A DNA stretch of 64,000 nt from Pegethrix bostrychoides GSE-TBD4-15B (GTDB lineage: Bacteria; Cyanobacteriota; Cyanobacteriia; Elainellales; Elainellaceae): positions 1-64,000 of the forward strand of contig JAHHHV010000088.1 of NCBI GenBank assembly GCA_019359155.1, written 5' to 3'. The notes beneath the pieces were generated by a model. That model was not told where the DNA came from. It worked only from the letters and a program-made list of their open reading frames with translations, and did no database searches. This document shows, piece by piece, positions 8,545 through 16,467 of this stretch (the stretch's first letter is position 1; every line of letters begins with the position of its first letter). Position numbers and translations under genes: made by a program.

Positions 8545-9264
8545 CTAATATGCGCCCGTCTTGTTAAGCAAAACAATCAGCGTGCGCCAGATCAAAACTA
8601 AGTCGTAGAGCGGTGTCCAGCGCTGCTGATAGCGTAGATCTAACTTGAGTACCTGCTCAAAGTCCTTGACAGTGGAGCGGCCATGCACCTGCCACTCGCC
8701 AGTAATTCCTGGCTTGACGCTAAGCCGCTGCCAGTGATGCGGCCTATAGCGGCTCACTTCATCCTGCGTGGGAGGACGGGTGCCCACCAGACTCATCTCG
8801 CCTCGAAACACGTTCCAAAACTGCGGCAGCTCATCCAGGCTGGTTTTGCGTAAAAAACGTCCGACTCGCGTAATGCGCGGATCCTGCTTATTCTTGAAGA
8901 TTAAGCCATTGGCCTCGTTTTGCACCACGGCTTTCAGCGCGTCGGCATTTTGCACCATTGAGCGAAATTTGAGAATGGTGAAGGGTTTACCCTGCAAGCC
9001 AAACCGCTGCTGCCGGTAGAGCACTGGGCCAAGGCTATCAAGCTTGATCGCCACCGCAATTGGCAAAAACAGCAGTCCCAGCGCTAGCAGGCCAACGACT
9101 GATCCAGCCAGATCGATCGAACGCTTGATGGGGCTGACTGCCGACGGGTGAATCGCTCCAACTGCTGCTGCCGAGGCTGTGGCATCAGAGCTAGAGGTCA
9201 AACCAGAACCGCCAGTTCCCGATTCTTGACCAGCCTCTGAATTTTGGGGCGCAGGATCTAACAT
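8545..9264 (-). CDS. Polyprenyl-phosphate sugar-phosphate transferase (WcaJ/RfbP C-terminal type)
   Basis: A 239-residue initiating glycosyltransferase that moves a hexose-1-phosphate from a UDP-sugar to undecaprenyl phosphate, starting exopolysaccharide or O-antigen-like repeat synthesis at the inner membrane. After a low-complexity Ser/Ala-rich 50-residue N-terminus comes the membrane hairpin (IDLAGSVVGLLALGLLFLPI). The catalytic domain follows, with YRQQRFGLQGKPFTILKFRSM, RKTSLDELPQFWNVFRGEMS and LVGTRPPTQDE; these contain the conserved KFRSM, the DE pair and the RP motif. It lacks the large N-terminal domain of full-length WcaJ. It is unusual in standing without a surrounding polysaccharide cluster. 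ATG at 9264. Confidence 0.92.
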   Translation of the reverse strand: MLDPAPQNSEAGQESGTGGSGLTSSSDATASAAAVGAIHPSAVSPIKRSIDLAGSVVGLLALGLLFLPIAVAIKLDSLGPVLYRQQRFGLQGKPFTILKFRSMVQNADALKAVVQNEANGLIFKNKQDPRITRVGRFLRKTSLDELPQFWNVFRGEMSLVGTRPPTQDEVSRYRPHHWQRLSVKPGITGEWQVHGRSTVKDFEQVLKLDLRYQQRWTPLYDLVLIWRTLIVLLNKTGAY

Positions 9265-9677
9265 GGGTCAAGTCTGGGATAGGTTGGACGGGAGGTGAGA
9301 GTCCGACAGAGCACTAGCCCAAATCTCAGGCGCAGCGACGAGAACCAGTTTGGGGCGAACAACCAGATGATGACTTGGTAGGGCAGCCCGTACCAGCAAT
9401 TTGAGCCAAATTCAAGCAGATTTGACGCAGAATTAAGCAATTTATCTGTGAATCATGACCCAAGCAACCCACTTTATTAGAGATTAGAGATGGTTTCAGC
9501 CATTCTGTCTAGTGAGACCTGATACAAAGATGGCAAAACTTTAGCGGTGCTTTGCTTTTGTAAACTTTTGATGAAGATACGTCAATTCAGCCCTTATTAA
9601 CCCATCTCAGCATAGAAAACCAGCAGTGAAGACTTGGCGGATCCCCCTAAAACCTTGCTGTTCTGCCAATATCGGGA
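9265..9677. other. 413-bp spacer with no recognised gene
   Basis: Between the sugar-phosphate transferase start and tRNA-Ser I see no protein-coding frame with a plausible start and no clear repeat or structured RNA. It presumably holds the promoter of the transferase, which reads leftwards. Confidence 0.5.
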
Positions 9678-9762
9678 CGGAGAGGGGGGGATTCGAACCC
9701 CCGTTGAGTTGCCCCAAACCTGATTTCGAGTCAAGCGCATTCAACCACTCTGCCACCTCTCC
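9678..9762 (-). tRNA. tRNA-Ser (anticodon CGA)
   Basis: Read on the minus strand it gives an acceptor stem GGAGAGG (9762-9756) pairing with CCTCTCC (9685-9679). Next come a D arm, an anticodon arm CTTGA/CTCGAAA/TCAGG with anticodon CGA, a long class II variable arm, and a T arm with GGTTCGAATCC. The discriminator base is G, as expected for serine tRNAs. CCA is not encoded. It reads UCG codons. Confidence 0.95.
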
Positions 9763-9808
9763 AAAGGTAACTGAACTATTGTAGTGCTTGACCAGGCAAT
9801 CGGGTAGC

Positions 9809-12151
9809 CTATTCGGCGGCGGCCTGCTCCAGACGCAACCGCACCGCGCCTTCCTGCTGGAGCCGATGTAGCTCAACCTGATGTTGCTGGAGCCACAGCT
9901 CTGTTGTCGAATCAATCTCCTCTCCAAAGTCAATCGCCAGCTTGGGGTTCAGCTTTTCTAGCAGCTTGGGCGAGAGCGCTTGGCCTGACCAACCGATGCC
10001 GTCTACTGGCTTAAGTGACTTAACAAAACGCTCTTGCTGTGCGATCGACGGCGATTCATCAAACCACAGCCAGGTCTGCCCGCTCAACTGCATCGCGAGA
10101 ATATCAGGATTACTGTGAATTACGGTTACTGTAGCCAAACCAGCCTTCACAGTTTGACCGAACGAAAGTGCCATCGCCGTACCGTGATCTGCGACTTGGG
10201 CTTGCAGGGCTCGATAGTCCTGATTATGCTGAGCTATATTTTTAGCTCCAGAAAATCCAGCGCTGCTGTAAAAAAAGCGAGGCAGCTTAGATACAAAAAT
10301 CTGCTTCAGGCCATCCAGTTCACGCTCACTGATCTGGGGTGCTACCACCCAATCCAAGTGATTCACACCTTGCCGCTGCAAAAACGGCAGCACGATGAAT
10401 TCGGCATCTTTGGCATGACCACTGTGAATCAAACCAACCGTTCCCTGATCCTGCACCACCAGCACTGACCGTTCAGCAGTCGCCAAAACCGTCACCTGTG
10501 ATTGGGTTGCGCTGTAGCCAGCAGGTACAGCCACCAGCGTCATGCCTACCATTAGCGCCAGCCACCAGTAGCGATGCAGCTTTGGCCAGCGCCAAATCAG
10601 GCCAATTAGTCCATACATGACCACAACCAGCGCTGGATGAACGGTGCCAACGGCAAAATTAGCCCCCGGTAGTTGACTGCCCAATTCAGCACCTTTGAGA
10701 AACCCATGCGTTGGATAATAGAGTGTCCAGGCCAGCAGACCACCTAATTTGGGATAAATTAAAGCCCCTACTGCGCTAATCATACCGCCCAAACTAATCA
10801 GCGCAATCAGTGGACTTACAATAATGTTAATCAGAATGCTGTAGGGCGCTACTACGCCAAACACAGCCAACATCAAAGGCAACGTCCAGAGATAGGCAGA
10901 AATTGGGATTGCAAATATCGGAATCAGATTGCTGGGCAGCCAGTCAAACCATTTTGAGACTATCGGCACTGTGACCAATAAGCCTAACGTTGCTAGGAAA
11001 CTAAGCAGAAAGCCTAAGTCCCATATCCAGAGCGGATTGTAAATCAATAGCGCCACTGCTGCCATCAGCAGCGATCCGAGTGGCTTCACCTTGCGATTTG
11101 CGGTGAGGGCAGCCAGCGCCACAAAACCCATGATTCCGGCTCGCAGCACCGAAGGCTCAAGTCCGGTGAGGCCGAGATAGAGCAGCAGAATGCCGCTGCC
11201 TAAGCCAAATCGCCAGCGATTCGACAGCCGCTGACTCAGGGCTAAAACGACCCCAACCAGCAAGGTCACCTGGGTTCCAGAAGCAGCCAGCGCATGTGCC
11301 AACCCTGTCTGCTTAAACTGATCTTGAATCTCGTAAGGAATATCGACCGCCGCTTTGCCCATCACCATCGCGCTGACCAACGCACCCTCTGGATTCCCCA
11401 AGCCGCGCTCCTGCACCTGCATAATCCGCTGCCGCATCGCCCAAAGCAGTGGCGCAGGCTCTCGATCGCTGAGGTAAGTTAGCTCCATACCATTCAGTCC
11501 TGCAGAAATGCCTTGCTGAGCCAGATATTTTTCAAAGTTAAACCCACCCGAATTGGTAGGTGGCTGGGGCGCGTAAAGTTTGCCCGTCACCGTCACGGTT
11601 CGTCCCGGATAGAGCTGCTCGCCTGCTGGGCGCGGCAGGGTGACGTAGAGTTTGCCGGTCACGGGCTGAGGCGTTAGGGAGACGGCTGACAGATCACCTG
11701 ACGGATCAGCTGACGGATTGGCTGACCTGATTTCGGTAGCTGCTAACTCAAACTGAAGCTTCTGGCTGCGGGTTAGTCGCGGTGCAGAAACCACCTTGCC
11801 GTCAACTGCAAACGCCTTGACCTCCGCTTTGGCAAAGGCGGCAGATGGGCAGCGCGCAACCGCAGTCTCACTCCAGATTGCGTGACAGACATCCGAACTG
11901 CTGGGCTGAGGTAAGCGAACTTGAAAGTAGAGTCCTGCAACGAAGCCGAGCAGTCCGGCGATCAGCCAAGCCCATCTAGGCAATCCGCGCCAAACTCGCT
12001 TGCCCAAACCAACGGCCAAACCAGCAGCCAGCAGCCCCAGCAGCAAGCTGATAGCCATTCCTAGCGGCAGGCCAGCCACTGAACCCGGAACGCCAGTGAG
12101 CAACAGCCCCAAAATAAAAGACAGCCCCAGAAGCGTCGAAATCTCAGCCAT
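9809..12151 (-). CDS. comEC: ComEC/Rec2-family DNA uptake channel protein
   Basis: A protein of about 780 residues that forms the inner-membrane channel for single-stranded DNA in natural transformation. N-terminal membrane helices are followed by the extracytoplasmic DUF4131/OB-like region (to about residue 230). The competence domain carries the hallmark HALAASGTQVTLLVG and many membrane helices. The C-terminal metallo-beta-lactamase-like domain spans about 560-780. That last domain has lost the HxHxDH metal site: the expected position reads LDWVVAPQISERELDGL, so nuclease activity is unlikely. I chose the ATG at 12151; an in-frame GTG lies 9 bp earlier. Both starts lie at the 3' foot of a strong stem-loop described separately. 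Confidence 0.93.
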   Translation of the reverse strand: MAEISTLLGLSFILGLLLTGVPGSVAGLPLGMAISLLLGLLAAGLAVGLGKRVWRGLPRWAWLIAGLLGFVAGLYFQVRLPQPSSSDVCHAIWSETAVARCPSAAFAKAEVKAFAVDGKVVSAPRLTRSQKLQFELAATEIRSANPSADPSGDLSAVSLTPQPVTGKLYVTLPRPAGEQLYPGRTVTVTGKLYAPQPPTNSGGFNFEKYLAQQGISAGLNGMELTYLSDREPAPLLWAMRQRIMQVQERGLGNPEGALVSAMVMGKAAVDIPYEIQDQFKQTGLAHALAASGTQVTLLVGVVLALSQRLSNRWRFGLGSGILLLYLGLTGLEPSVLRAGIMGFVALAALTANRKVKPLGSLLMAAVALLIYNPLWIWDLGFLLSFLATLGLLVTVPIVSKWFDWLPSNLIPIFAIPISAYLWTLPLMLAVFGVVAPYSILINIIVSPLIALISLGGMISAVGALIYPKLGGLLAWTLYYPTHGFLKGAELGSQLPGANFAVGTVHPALVVVMYGLIGLIWRWPKLHRYWWLALMVGMTLVAVPAGYSATQSQVTVLATAERSVLVVQDQGTVGLIHSGHAKDAEFIVLPFLQRQGVNHLDWVVAPQISERELDGLKQIFVSKLPRFFYSSAGFSGAKNIAQHNQDYRALQAQVADHGTAMALSFGQTVKAGLATVTVIHSNPDILAMQLSGQTWLWFDESPSIAQQERFVKSLKPVDGIGWSGQALSPKLLEKLNPKLAIDFGEEIDSTTELWLQQHQVELHRLQQEGAVRLRLEQAAAE

Positions 12152-12154
12152 GTA

Positions 12155-12207
12155 AAGCACCCTGAATTTAGCTGGAGTCTGCTGCCTCGCAGCGACTCAG
12201 GGTGCTT
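12155..12207 (-). promoter_or_regulatory. Two-tier stem-loop covering the comEC translation start region
   Basis: An 11-bp perfect inverted repeat (AAGCACCCTGA and TCAGGGTGCTT; 12155-12165 with 12197-12207) encloses a second hairpin GTC-GCTGC-GAG-GCAGC-A-GAC. On the minus-strand transcript the structure begins 6 nt after the DUF4079 stop codon and its 3' arm ends 3 nt before the comEC ATG at 12151. The only purine-rich Shine-Dalgarno-like bases (AGGG, spaced 8 nt) and the alternative GTG start lie in the stem. Only three T follow, so a terminator is possible but a translational or attenuator role is as likely. Confidence 0.7.
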
Positions 12208-12213
12208 GGATTG

Positions 12214-12729
12214 TTAAATCGACAAGCCCAGCTTCAGCCCAAACAGCGCGTGCAAAAACAGCAGACAGAGCGCTGCACTCCCCAAATAGGCATGGGCAGT
12301 CCGCAGCTCTAGCTTATTTTTCCCGAAGCGAGTTGCAGCCAGCAGAGCGTTTACGGTTAGTAACAAAACGGCAGCTGACCCTGTCCAAAAATGTGGGCTG
12401 GCGAGGATTGGCTGCTGCTGCATCACCAGCGACAGCAGGCCGCCCGTATAGCCCAGCACAATAAATAAGTACATTAGGGGCGCAATTTTTTTGTGGTCTG
12501 TCCAGCTTTTGGCCGCCTCTGCCTGGCCCATTGTCCCACCCATTGTCTCGCCCATCTTTCTGCTCAATGCTCTGCCTCGCCATCCCGTCAGGCCAACAGC
12601 GCTGCCCATCACAAACACCACAATTCCCATCATCAGCGGATGCCCCCAATGCACAATCGGCTCTGGCAGATCCATCTGACGAAACCAGGCGGCAACTGGC
12701 TCTAATAGCTGACTGAAGCGCTCTCCCAT
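12214..12729 (-). CDS. DUF4079 four-helix membrane protein
   Basis: A 171-residue integral membrane protein with four predicted helices and the HWGHPLMMGIVVFVMGS and LRTAHAYLGSAALCLLFLHALFG segments typical of the cyanobacterial/plastid DUF4079 family. Its paired His residues in helices recall cytochrome b561-like haem binding, though function is not established. The start at 12729 is supported by GAGGAAG six to seven bases upstream; the frame is open 14 codons further. It lies directly upstream of comEC on the same strand, separated by the 53-nt stem-loop. Confidence 0.8.
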   Translation of the reverse strand: MGERFSQLLEPVAAWFRQMDLPEPIVHWGHPLMMGIVVFVMGSAVGLTGWRGRALSRKMGETMGGTMGQAEAAKSWTDHKKIAPLMYLFIVLGYTGGLLSLVMQQQPILASPHFWTGSAAVLLLTVNALLAATRFGKNKLELRTAHAYLGSAALCLLFLHALFGLKLGLSI

Positions 12730-12839
12730 CGGATCTTCCTCTCTGTTTCTTTGAAGAAATGTTAAGAGCATTTTACGCCTAAAACAATCGGCAGCGCGAC
12801 CCTTAGTCCAGCGCTGCCGATGAGCTTGCAGATTTGCCT

Positions 12840-13724
12840 CTAGATTTCAGCTACGGCTCGCTCGACCAACCGACGAGTCAGCGTCTGCACGCCCGTATGT
12901 CGGTAATATTTCACCGATACATCCAAGAAAGCGCCCAGGTAGTCCATCTTGTCGCTGGAGACTTCCACAAACTTGGAGAGGTTATCGACTAAGCCTTTTT
13001 GAGTTAGCCCCTTCGACGAGACGAAGTTATCCATCCAGCCCTTCGTAGACTCAAAGCTTTCGGTGATAAAGCTCAGCTTGCCCGCATCGTTATTTCCCGG
13101 AATCAAGTCCTTGACTCCTTTGAAGGTTTGATTGCCGCTGACCTCAGAGGGACTCATGCCCTTGATCATCGTCAACGCCTTGTCGGTAAAGCCAGCCCCT
13201 AGCGGAATCAAGCCGTCAAAGCAGACTAGCGCCGCCATCCGCATCAGCGACTCGCCGCCATAGTCTTTGAGCGCTGCGAGAAAATCGCCAATGCTATCGC
13301 CCGGAATGCCGTTGATTTGGCAAAAGGCTACTAGCTCTGTCACCAGTTTCACGGTCAAATCAATGCTCTGGGCGCGCTCTGGCTTCGGCGTAATATTCTT
13401 CAAAAATCCCAGAAACGTATCCTGTCCAATCCGATTGGCGAGCGCCGCCGTTCCCAGCAGGCCGGAAGCAGAATCAACTGATTCATAGAGCCAGAGCGCC
13501 CTTTGATAGCCTTGCGACTTATCGTTGTAGAGCGTCACAGCCCGCTCCCCAATCTGCTGAATCAGCGATTCGTCTGTTTCACCGGTTACCGTGCGGATCG
13601 TATTATCAAATCCCACGAGGTTGTTCCATTGCCCCGGCACCACAAAGTCCAGCGACTTCAAGGCCGAAACCGTCAGTCCGCCTTTCGGCAGATCATCCAC
13701 CAACTCATATACTGGCTTACTCAC
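12840..13724 (-). CDS. Conserved-looking soluble protein of unknown function
   Basis: A 294-residue protein I do not recognise. It starts with GTG at 13724, supported by AAGGAG about eight bases upstream. There is no signal peptide or membrane helix; composition suggests an alpha-helical soluble protein with a helical repeat-like middle (IDLTVKLVTELVAFCQINGI, SLMRMAALVCFDGLIPLGAG) and a C-terminal helix LTRRLVERAVAEI. It is followed (110 bp) by DUF4079 and preceded (70 bp) by a lipoprotein gene, all minus strand. The three may be one transcription unit. The smooth codon use and good ribosome site argue that it is a real gene. Confidence 0.75.
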   Translation of the reverse strand: MSKPVYELVDDLPKGGLTVSALKSLDFVVPGQWNNLVGFDNTIRTVTGETDESLIQQIGERAVTLYNDKSQGYQRALWLYESVDSASGLLGTAALANRIGQDTFLGFLKNITPKPERAQSIDLTVKLVTELVAFCQINGIPGDSIGDFLAALKDYGGESLMRMAALVCFDGLIPLGAGFTDKALTMIKGMSPSEVSGNQTFKGVKDLIPGNNDAGKLSFITESFESTKGWMDNFVSSKGLTQKGLVDNLSKFVEVSSDKMDYLGAFLDVSVKYYRHTGVQTLTRRLVERAVAEI

Positions 13725-13794
13725 AATGCGGCTCCTTATCTTAAAAATGCAGAACGCTGAACTTGAAGCCGGACTTGCCGACTGAACCTATGGC

Positions 13795-14484
13795 TTAGCC
13801 AGCAGGCTGAGGAATCAAGACAGGCGGCAAATCGTCGGCAGCGGCAGGCTTGATAGGCTTAGCAACTGGCGGCTGGAGAGCTTTGACATCTGCCGTCGCG
13901 TCATCAGTGGCCTGCTTGACAACAGCCTGCGCTTTTTGAGTGGCGGTGGTCGGCAGGTTGGTCAGCTTCTCAGCGCCCTCTAGCTGGGCTAGGCCTCTGA
14001 GGTCAAATTTTTGTAGCCAAGCTACGCGGTCTGCTTGGGTAAACTCCGGATCGCGTGAGAGCACTTTCACCTGATAGCGATTATTAACCAGTATGCCGGT
14101 TGACATCGTGCCCTGGTTGACGGACGGATAGCCCGCAACCGACTCGGTGCTGTTTTGATACTTGAGCGCCGCCGCAGGCAGATTGGCCGTGTCGCTCACC
14201 GACAGCATCGCTACATTTTTGCCGTCTTTGTTGAGCTTATATTCTGCAAAACCTTTTTTCTCTTGTGCCGGAACGACCCGGTAGGTTCCGGTTGGATCTG
14301 GGAAGAACTTATTGAATGTTGAGCCCTGTTCAGAAGCTTTGACAACAGCAGTCTGTGCGCCTCTGCCCGTCGTCTCTTTTTGCACTTCAGCATAGCGTGA
14401 AGGGGCTTTAGAGCAGGCGGTTACCAAAAGCAACAGGCTGAGCATAACGGGGGCAAGCGCCCTGAGCCAGCGAGCAAATTTCAT
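13795..14484 (-). CDS. Putative lipoprotein
   Basis: A 229-residue exported protein. The N-terminus has a positively charged start, a hydrophobic stretch and a lipobox LVTACS, so Cys about residue 24 would be lipidated after signal peptidase II cleavage. The mature part includes DPTGTYRVVPAQEKKGFAEYKLNKDG and resembles PsbP-like or similar beta-rich lumenal/periplasmic lipoproteins only vaguely; no family assigned. The C-terminal 40 residues are Pro/Ala/Lys-rich and probably disordered. Start chosen at 14484 because AGGAGA lies six bases upstream; an earlier in-frame Met at 14508 has none. It lies between two unknown genes on the same strand. Confidence 0.75.
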   Translation of the reverse strand: MKFARWLRALAPVMLSLLLLVTACSKAPSRYAEVQKETTGRGAQTAVVKASEQGSTFNKFFPDPTGTYRVVPAQEKKGFAEYKLNKDGKNVAMLSVSDTANLPAAALKYQNSTESVAGYPSVNQGTMSTGILVNNRYQVKVLSRDPEFTQADRVAWLQKFDLRGLAQLEGAEKLTNLPTTATQKAQAVVKQATDDATADVKALQPPVAKPIKPAAADDLPPVLIPQPAG

Positions 14485-14581
14485 CTTTGTCTCCTGAAAA
14501 TGCAGCAAATAACTGAATTTTAGCGGAATACGTCACCAGGGTCGCAGTCCCGCAAAAGAACGCAATCTATCTAGAAACCAT

Positions 14582-14630
14582 CCTCTAGATGGATTGCAGA
14601 AATTAATTTCGGCTGAGTGCAATCTAGAGG
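14582..14630 (-). repeat. Inverted repeat (hairpin) between two unknown genes
   Basis: CCTCTAGAT plus GGATTGCA (14582-14598) can pair with TGCAATCTAGAGG (14618-14630) with a small bulge, around a loop containing GAAATTAATTTC. A related GCAATCTATCTAGA lies at 14562-14575. The hairpin follows the 159-residue gene ending at 14635 on the minus strand but has no T tract, so it may be an RNA-stabilising or processing structure. Confidence 0.6.
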
Positions 14631-14634
14631 CAAT

Positions 14635-15114
14635 TTAAACTGCGAATGCCGCTTTGATTTTGGCCAGTGCAGCCGCTTCCTTTTCACTCACTTTGGGATT
14701 GCCTGAGCCAAACAAACCGCTGCCTGCGGCGTTAGCAACGGCATCTGCACAGTCGTACACAAACTGCTTGAACTCCGAGATTTCTGCGGGCGTTGCTTTA
14801 TCGCCAATCGCCGCGACTGCGGTTTCAACAGTCGCTAGTGCTTTATCGACAACTGCACCAGACTGCACGTCTTCAGGCTTGATGTCAGGCTTCTCCAGCT
14901 TGACACTGCCGCCCTTAATAGCAGCCTCTGAAAACACGGCCTGAATAATTGAATTGTTGGGATATTTTTCCGCCGCTCCAGCCACTTGCTTCGACATCGC
15001 AGCTGCCTCAATTGCCGTTGAGACAATCCCCATATCAACCATCGCTACCGCCATGCCAATCATCATTGGCGCTTCAGCGACCTTACTCATTTCTTCGGAT
15101 GTATAAGCTGCCAT
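14635..15114 (-). CDS. Ala-rich helical protein of unknown function
   Basis: A 159-residue protein I cannot place. It is rich in Ala, Val and Lys and looks mostly alpha-helical. An N-terminal amphipathic or membrane-associating segment (MMIGMAVAMVDMGIVSTAIEAAAM) is followed by two helical segments, EISEFKQFVYDCADAVANAAG and VSEKEAAALAKIKAAFAV. The layout vaguely recalls TerB-like helical bundles, but this is only an impression. ATG at 15114 with AGCTTAAAAA upstream gives no strong ribosome site; GGGAGC lies about nine bases before. First gene of the minus-strand run 15114 to 12214. Confidence 0.65.
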   Translation of the reverse strand: MAAYTSEEMSKVAEAPMMIGMAVAMVDMGIVSTAIEAAAMSKQVAGAAEKYPNNSIIQAVFSEAAIKGGSVKLEKPDIKPEDVQSGAVVDKALATVETAVAAIGDKATPAEISEFKQFVYDCADAVANAAGSGLFGSGNPKVSEKEAAALAKIKAAFAV

Positions 15115-15329
15115 TTTTTAAGCTCCCTGTTGGTTCTGTTGAGAAAACTCTAAATGAACTTACCACTTCCAAGCCTAAAAAAGGCAGATGTTCAGCTATT
15201 TCTTGACCTGATTTGTCGCATATTGATTCAGCCTAAATCCCGAATTATCATCATTGGCACGTTCCCAAGTTTGAGCAGGAGATAGTCCATAGCAGGTATT
15301 GATAAACACACCCCGATTCAATCCCAATT

Positions 15330-15458
15330 GTGCATTTTAAAACTTACAGTCTGCTATTCCCTTGGGAGGATTTAACAGTTGAGCTAGCCAATGAGTTAGG
15401 CCGACGAGCTGATCAACTAGAGTATGCCAAAGATACAGGCTATGGAACCACAGGTTAA
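15330..15458 (+). CDS. Possible small ORF or gene remnant (42 codons)
   Basis: In the 468-bp gap between two minus-strand genes a plus-strand frame from GTG 15330 encodes a 42-residue peptide with helical character, DLTVELANELGRRADQLEYA, ending before a TAA at 15456. There is no Shine-Dalgarno at the GTG; the GGGAGGAT at 15391 lies within the frame. It may be a fragment of a lost gene. No family recognised; the rest of the gap shows nothing except the terminator at 15493. Confidence 0.2.
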   Translation: MHFKTYSLLFPWEDLTVELANELGRRADQLEYAKDTGYGTTG

Positions 15459-15490
15459 TTCAACATGTAAAACTATCGTTCAACAACCGA

Positions 15491-15514
15491 AAAAGAGCCC
15501 CAATTGGGGCTCTT
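15491..15514 (-). terminator. Rho-independent terminator for the 15583-16467 gene
   Basis: A perfect 9-bp inverted repeat AAGAGCCCC-AATT-GGGGCTCTT at 15493-15514; on the minus strand it is followed by a T run (AAAAA at 15490-15494 on plus). It lies 70 bp after the stop of the minus-strand gene. Confidence 0.85.
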
Positions 15515-15582
15515 GCCAAATTGCGTCTGAGGTTTAACTCAACTCACCACAGCCACCTACGACTACCTACGACTGAATGGGT

Positions 15583-16467
15583 CTAGCGTCTGCGTCCACC
15601 CGATCTGCGTCTTGCGCCACCGCTGCCAAAGCCACCCGGGCTTCTGGTCTTGCTGGGGCTAGTTTTGGAGCGCTGGAGGTCGGTTGAACCGTAACCTGAG
15701 CCAGTTGAGCGGTTGCCCTGATTGACGCTGGGCGATTTGGTGGCTGTGCCTGTACTGCCTCCAGCCGCGCTGGGTGAACGGCGAAGCTGTCCGGTTGTGC
15801 GAAAACTCTGCTGGTTTTTGACCGCAGCGGGCGGCGCATTGTATTTGGTGCGATAGCTGCTGACCGCGTCGTTGTAGCTGTTGCCATAGCCGCCGTAGCC
15901 CGTCATGACCCGCCCTGGCGAGTAGATGGGCGGCACGTAGTAGCGCGGCGCAAACAGCAAGTTGCCGATCGCCTGACCCGCTAGCGCTCCGGCGAAAGGC
16001 GACCAGAAGTTGGACTCACGCCGCACCACGACAGTTTCTTCCTGACCTGTCTGGGGATTAGTCTGCGTCTCGACGACGTTGTGCACATATTCAATCCGGA
16101 AGTCTTCGCTCAGATAGAGGACGGGCTGGGCATTTTCGACTTTTAAGTAGGGTTTTTTGCCCGCTTTAATTTCGTCATCCGTCAGCCGCGCCATTTGCAA
16201 ATTTGTGGCCCGGTAGAGCGGCGGCGCACCTGCGGGAGTATCCAGCAGCATCAGCGCATACTCACCGCTGCCATCGTCATAAGTAGCCTGCTGTACCGGA
16301 TAGCTGCCGTCTGCAATGGCAGTGGGAGCCGCAGACTGTGCCGCCACGGGAGCAGAATCAGTCGAGTTGAGCGCGGTCGAATCATCGGCGCAGGCAAAGG
16401 TAGAAACCGAGAGGCCAAACGCCATCGAAATCACTAAAAATTTACGGATCATAGTTTGGTAATTCAT
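15583..16467 (-). CDS. Exported protein with glycine/arginine-rich C-terminus
   Basis: A 294-residue protein with a secretory N-terminus (KFLVISMAFGLSVSTFACADD) that may be a lipoprotein signal, since the FACA segment resembles a weak lipobox. The middle has a beta-rich segment (GSGEYALMLLDTPAGAPPLY, VLYLSEDFRIEYVHNVVE) and a short hydrophobic SPFAGALAGQAIGNLLFAP. The last 100 residues are Ser/Thr/Gly-rich and very basic, ending in GGARRRSGGRRR. Such a tail could bind nucleic acid, acidic polysaccharide or peptidoglycan; function unknown. The first Met has GAAG upstream; an in-frame Met five codons later is possible. The DUF1517 gene lies upstream on the same strand (61 bp). Confidence 0.7.
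   Translation of the reverse strand: MNYQTMIRKFLVISMAFGLSVSTFACADDSTALNSTDSAPVAAQSAAPTAIADGSYPVQQATYDDGSGEYALMLLDTPAGAPPLYRATNLQMARLTDDEIKAGKKPYLKVENAQPVLYLSEDFRIEYVHNVVETQTNPQTGQEETVVVRRESNFWSPFAGALAGQAIGNLLFAPRYYVPPIYSPGRVMTGYGGYGNSYNDAVSSYRTKYNAPPAAVKNQQSFRTTGQLRRSPSAAGGSTGTATKSPSVNQGNRSTGSGYGSTDLQRSKTSPSKTRSPGGFGSGGARRRSGGRRR

Follow-up and report, generated by a model that had tools for sequence, protein, structure and literature searches.

The 62-nt gap between the stop codon of a DUF4079 gene and the ATG of comEC is mostly filled, on the minus strand, by a stable hairpin, and the start of comEC is predicted to be closed by it. The hairpin lies in a stretch of 64,000 nucleotides from Pegethrix bostrychoides GSE-TBD4-15B, all of which was analysed (hereafter, the window). 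We regard it as about evenly probable that the hairpin is a static brake, weakly or not regulated, within a DUF4079-comEC transcription unit. DUF4079 and comEC would be co-transcribed; some DUF4079 transcripts would end at the hairpin, which is terminator-like with a weak U-tract; and read-through mRNA would bear the folded stem into comEC, where it would hide a good ribosome-binding site belonging to comEC itself, such that little ComEC is made. This reading builds on computed features: the stem itself, the order of the genes, the predicted closure of the start, the same stem kept by the closest relative and, in some family members, terminator-like stems with T-runs that reach the comEC ATG.

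The hairpin and the comEC ribosome site

An earlier note on this DNA reported a perfect stem of 11 bp, with a further stem of 8 bp inside it, in the gap between DUF4079 and comEC; both are confirmed from the sequence (Table 1). In the minimum-energy fold the outer stem is retained and a different inner arrangement is preferred, with the 8-bp inner stem as an alternative. The 53-nt hairpin has a folding energy of -31.0 kcal/mol (z -5.88), and none of 200 dinucleotide shuffles was equally stable; the fold of 12120-12225, put forward in the earlier note as a check, gave z -3.35. With 400 nt of context, ten of the 11 outer pairs are predicted to form with a probability of at least 0.98, and the outermost pair with a probability of 0.51. 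When the genome was searched at the DNA level, the hairpin gave only short partial matches and no second copy, and we rejected a mobile or repeated element. The sequence CAGGGTGCTT has 11 matches in the genome, two of which are the arms of the hairpin and nine of which lie inside open frames of at least 260 codons. No Rfam family matched the hairpin at gathering score, with only weak, chance-level matches near the site; the scan of the whole window at that score returned tRNA only, and by this measure the hairpin matches no described family of regulated RNA switches. The only tRNA gene of the window, tRNA-Ser (anticodon CGA), lies just 3' of comEC on the same strand, at 9675-9763 (-).

Table 1. 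Coordinates of features around the DUF4079-comEC gap of the window
Feature	Position	Strand	Remarks
Second 11-bp perfect stem, then TGTTTT	12787..12821	-	Between the preceding gene and DUF4079
DUF4079 gene, 5' of comEC	12214..12771	-	Longest ORF; simple gene caller start 12729; Pfam PF13301, E 9.4e-33
DUF4079 stop, TAA	12216-12214	-	
Outer stem, 5' arm, AAGCACCCTGA	12197..12207	-	Starts 6 nt 3' of the DUF4079 stop; 12207-12197 pairs perfectly over 11 bp with 12165-12155
Inner stem, GTCGCTGC / GCAGC-(A)-GAC	within 12177..12196	-	8 bp with a bulged A; read from sequence and folds
Outer stem, 3' arm, TCAGGGTGCTT	12155..12165	-	Finishes 3 nt 5' of the comEC ATG
GGGTGC, Shine-Dalgarno-like site and comEC-associated conserved 6-mer	12157..12162	-	Anti-SD duplex -6.3 kcal/mol; enriched 5' of comEC
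comEC ATG	12151-12149	-	Aligns with ATG starts of relatives
comEC, DNA-uptake channel	9809..12151	-	Pfam Competence PF03772 and DUF4131 PF13567

Leader hairpins that sequester a ribosome site are a known general kind. The comEC hairpin resembles them in that its 3' arm holds a Shine-Dalgarno-like site that is paired in the predicted fold, with the start occluded; it differs in that no trigger, ligand or alternative structure was found for it in the 400-nt fold or in Rfam. The pairing of GGGUG with the anti-SD sequence is stronger than that of 77% of 346 genes, and positions 12165-12157 have an unpaired probability of 0.0 in the 400-nt fold, that is, the Shine-Dalgarno site is predicted to be fully paired. 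The ribosome site of comEC is therefore above average but predicted to be closed. Opening positions -20 to +5 at the comEC ATG has a computed cost of 17.4 kcal/mol, which ranks sixth among 345 sampled starts of the genome, and a cost of 16.5 kcal/mol with longer context, which ranks third among 91 same-strand genes with gaps of 20-150 nt; we called the control starts with a simple gene caller, and some are wrong. The earlier note had placed both the ribosome site and an alternative GTG start in the 3' arm. The ribosome site is borne out, but the GTG (12160-12158), although in frame in the window, is not so in L119 (genome G013), L011, L012 or L015, and we rejected it as a start.

Stems at the same place in relatives

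The gene order DUF4079 then comEC recurs in many cyanobacteria. We retained 55 comEC loci in one survey and 57 in another; a locus was discarded if comEC was missing from the retrieved DNA, if its match began beyond residue 20, or if its gap was identical to another. The relative with the closest ComEC (G013; 70% identical) has a stem at the same place, with 13 pairs in the fold and without a T-run. Among the 12 pairs that align between G013 and the window, nine are unchanged, two are changed on one side, one is changed on both sides and none is broken; these changes were read by eye from two folds, and automatic alignment put the 5' arms out of register. For the check for compensatory changes proposed in the earlier note, pairing is kept in G013, but an alignable stem occurs in two genomes only, too few for statistical support.

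In other relatives the place is occupied in various ways. The stem of G012 is longer, imperfect and followed by TTTTTC-ATG, that of G011 is imperfect, and that of G010 is of other sequence. Within the same family, L010, L029 and L032 have canonical terminators, in each of which T6-T7 comes after the stem and leads straight into the comEC ATG, and L027 has a stem with TTTATTT after it; the DUF4079-comEC gaps of L015, L017 and L021 are only 15-26 nt long. The comEC ATG overlaps the DUF4079 stop in seven of the 55 loci (L050, L051, L058, L079, L097, L099 and L107), and several Nostocales have a terminator-like hairpin followed by a longer leader before comEC. Stems of relatives other than G013 are unrelated and mostly non-alignable, and some relatives lack the stem yet retain the 3'-arm sequence. 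Given gaps and stems so varied, the arrangement changes fast and the exact stem is confined to a small clade. Six Nostocales loci (L073, L075, L076, L092, L104 and L117) share a terminator-like hairpin, AAAGCCCG..CGGGCTTT, between DUF4079 and comEC, followed by a conserved TATAAA..GATGAACTATACTTCACC that looks promoter-like by eye.

Occlusion of the comEC start was compared across 21 genomes of the family, leaving out L037, L120 and L121 (comEC downstream of DUF4079) and loci without a determined comEC start; the controls were the other genes of the same 5-20-kb stretch, 3-17 per relative, with 344 starts for the genome of the window. In 11 of the 21 genomes, occlusion of the comEC start reaches the 90th percentile or more (median 90th; KS p 5e-5), and all five genomes of the same genus fall between the 97th and 100th percentile. 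The start is not occluded in L015 (0, with only three controls), L030 (29) and L021 (30), and is near the middle in L017, L022 and L026 (57-62). Stems that end no more than 12 nt from the start are stronger at comEC than at 115 control genes (p 3e-6; related genomes), and at least five T in the 8 nt before the ATG occur at six of 21 comEC genes versus ten of 344 controls (p 1e-4; related genomes). All of these family p-values are too optimistic, because the control sets are small and the genomes are related. The stem of L012 exceeds the span limit of the family stem scan, which gives it too weak a value; its occlusion is at the 67th percentile with 70 nt of context and at the 100th percentile of seven genes with 110 nt. 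When 57 cyanobacterial comEC starts were set against genes from the genome of the window, the median occlusion percentile was only 59, so strong occlusion is not general for comEC.

Possible termination at the hairpin

Terminators may be L-shaped, with a U-tract, or I-shaped, without one, the latter being a recognised class in the available text of PMC7406221, which also gives cyanobacteria as having no known Rho homologue. The comEC hairpin is like an intrinsic terminator in being a stable, G+C-rich stem-loop (-31 kcal/mol, z -5.88) directly after a stop codon, at a place where L010, L029 and L032 have the L-shaped form. It is unlike one in its weak U-tract (no canonical U-tract follows the stem directly, the tail after the last G-C pair being TTTACATG), in its long, branched loop, and in the end of its stem 3 nt from the comEC ATG, over a ribosome site. 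By a T-score rule, the hairpin scores 2.61, or 1.12 from the stem end, versus 4.0-5.0 in L010, L012, L029 and L032. The second stem in Table 1 is probably the terminator of the unit preceding DUF4079, and scores 2.60, so the T score alone does not exclude termination at the comEC hairpin. A terminator scan of the window with loops of 3-8 did not list the hairpin.

Long stems are frequent elsewhere in this genome. In a sample of 464 kb, comprising the window and a further 400 kb, there are 28 perfect stems of at least 11 bp (loop 3-45), versus about 3.6 per block shuffle. Called genes contain 11 of the 28, and the other 17 are intergenic; divergent gaps make up one third of the intergenic DNA, yet hold only one of these 17. 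Therefore, long stems of this genome tend to mark the ends of genes. A 14-bp perfect stem also lies over the called start of a histidine kinase gene (dCache, HAMP, HATPase) on contig C64 of the same genome (L134:3548-3597, +); this start is among the most occluded sampled, and may be miscalled.

The position of 16 of the 17 intergenic stems outside divergent gaps, the canonical terminators that L010, L029 and L032 have in this gap, and the recognition of U-less terminators together with the lack of a known Rho in cyanobacteria in the available text of PMC7406221 are all points in favour of a plain 3'-end hairpin of DUF4079, an I-shaped terminator or a 3'-end stabiliser, with comEC separately started and the overlap with the ribosome site functionless. 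We consider this rather unlikely, since the stem is retained in G013 without any T-run, and ends 3 nt from the ATG in the window. Those 3 nt leave no room for a promoter between the stem and the ATG. A scan of 9000-16000 listed no consensus promoter on the minus strand at 12151-16000, a weak test by which a start belonging to comEC itself could be missed.

Termination near a start codon has a precedent in Escherichia coli mdtJI, where, in the available text of PMC7815308, premature termination in the 5' leader is dependent on spermidine, a uORF and Rho, and generates a 3' end six nt into the ORF. What the two cases would share is a transcript end only a few nt from a start codon; at comEC, however, the stem would be intergenic, and the phylum has no known Rho. 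The earlier note had offered an attenuator with read-through control as an alternative to a translational switch. Several family members have a terminator-like stem and a T-run in this gap, which fits that alternative; regulation is unsupported.

The GGGTG[CT] element and possible control of comEC

Conservation is seen in the sequence of the 3' arm; the pairing of its motif is not generally conserved. Among 1702 6-mers in an open count that covered 60 nt 5' of each of 51 non-redundant comEC genes, GGGTGC ranks first, being present at 11 of the 51 versus two of 651 control genes (binomial 8e-16). Within 35 nt of the start, GGGTG[CT] occurs at 14 of the 51, again versus two of 651; its bearers include the window, L119, L011, L012, L015, L042, L055, L085, L121, L193, L199 and L229. 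A second, phylum-wide set gave a weaker signal, with GGGTGC in three and GGGTG[CT] in six of 57 upstream sequences of 60 nt, one of the six (L181) having a misplaced start; six of the 70 loci in this set were dropped, and several of the remaining 64 starts are misplaced, diluting the motif counts. Over 105 upstream sequences, 19 of the 22 occurrences of GGGTG[CT] start at -35 to -5, and the motif favours one strand, with the complementary [AG]CACCC appearing only twice, which disfavours a remnant of the DUF4079 terminator. The motif is also present in four of 41 comEC loci without DUF4079 in the fetched stretch, these stretches being short enough that DUF4079 may lie beyond. A motif common to competence genes was rejected: between -60 and +30, GGGTG[CT] occurs in only three of 27 dprA and two of 29 comF loci (30 loci fetched for each, the rest having no usable start; positions relative to the first possible start), and three of these five matches sit at the start codon itself.

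Near the ATG, GGGTG[CT] may simply be a ribosome site. About half of the cases are too far upstream for a Shine-Dalgarno sequence. In L022, L030, L042, L085 and L121, a separate Shine-Dalgarno-like sequence, read by eye, lies 3' of the motif. Tentatively, and with low probability, a comEC-specific GGGUG(C/U) at -35 to -5 would be selected across many cyanobacteria and, given the cases too far upstream, read by a factor other than the 16S anti-SD, with the hairpin of this genus having evolved as a lock over it in post-transcriptional control of DNA uptake. The element is a more novel lead than the hairpin.

The earlier note had proposed a post-transcriptional switch of competence, and a regulated switch or attenuator could be opened by a factor, by a signal, or by a ribosome at the stop codon of DUF4079, which lies 6 nt before the stem. 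The predicted occlusion of a good ribosome site, the closeness of the DUF4079 stop codon to the 5' arm, and the comEC-associated element within the 3' arm would all suit such a switch, which we nonetheless judge to be quite improbable. No known RNA family was matched in Rfam, there was no sign of a competing structure in the single 400-nt fold, the stems of relatives are mostly non-alignable, and a ribosome at that stop codon would, by our reckoning, open no more than the outer few pairs, leaving GGGUG closed. In addition, across 23 loci the 3' arm is scarcely more paired than with shuffled upstream sequence (mean unpaired probability of the motif 0.22 versus 0.27). None of 60 shuffles left the motif as paired in L009, L119 and L199, and 5-7% did so in L010, L193, L030 and L121; the other 16 of the 23 loci are unremarkable, including G011 and G012 from the same genus, in which pairing was no better than in shuffles. 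Of the earlier proposal, the predicted closed start is supported, with the comEC start among the most occluded sampled and the stem kept in G013; a regulated switch has no positive support. A chance stem without function is improbable: about 3.6 perfect stems of at least 11 bp are expected by chance in 464 kb, and the stem is alignable in two genomes only, but its z is -5.88, it is kept in G013 despite a ComEC only 70% identical, and starts are occluded in five of five same-genus genomes.

For a static brake, we count the z-score, the outer-pair probabilities, the occlusion ranks, the strength of GGGUG, the stem in G013, the occlusion across the family, the T-runs and the lack of a consensus promoter in the scan. 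Against it, we count the weak U-tract, which is absent in G013, homologous stems in two genomes only, the ten of 21 family genomes below the 90th percentile, the motif pairing in G011 and G012 that is no better than in shuffles, and the fact that comEC could have its own start site.

Control of comEC after transcription would not be without parallel, as ComN is a post-transcriptional regulator of the comE operon in Bacillus subtilis; the likeness is a comEC-containing mRNA controlled after transcription, and the difference is another phylum and another operon. In cyanobacteria, comEC is described as a dusk-peaking competence gene of Synechococcus elongatus (PMC7125226), and the available portions of PMC7125226 and PMC9429965 treat competence with reference to the circadian clock, darkness, sigma factors and gene content, and do not deal with a comEC leader. 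Among the matches listed for the comEC and DUF4079 literature, no title concerned a comEC leader hairpin, which is not proof of its absence from print.

If the brake reading is true, the hairpin would add one more example of ordinary cis-acting RNA control. Should terminators or stems that hide the ribosome site often hold comEC down, having the competence genes need not mean being transformable. If stems restrain comEC, the short leader would be a testable cause of non-transformability, and the GGGTG[CT] element offers one concrete site to test.
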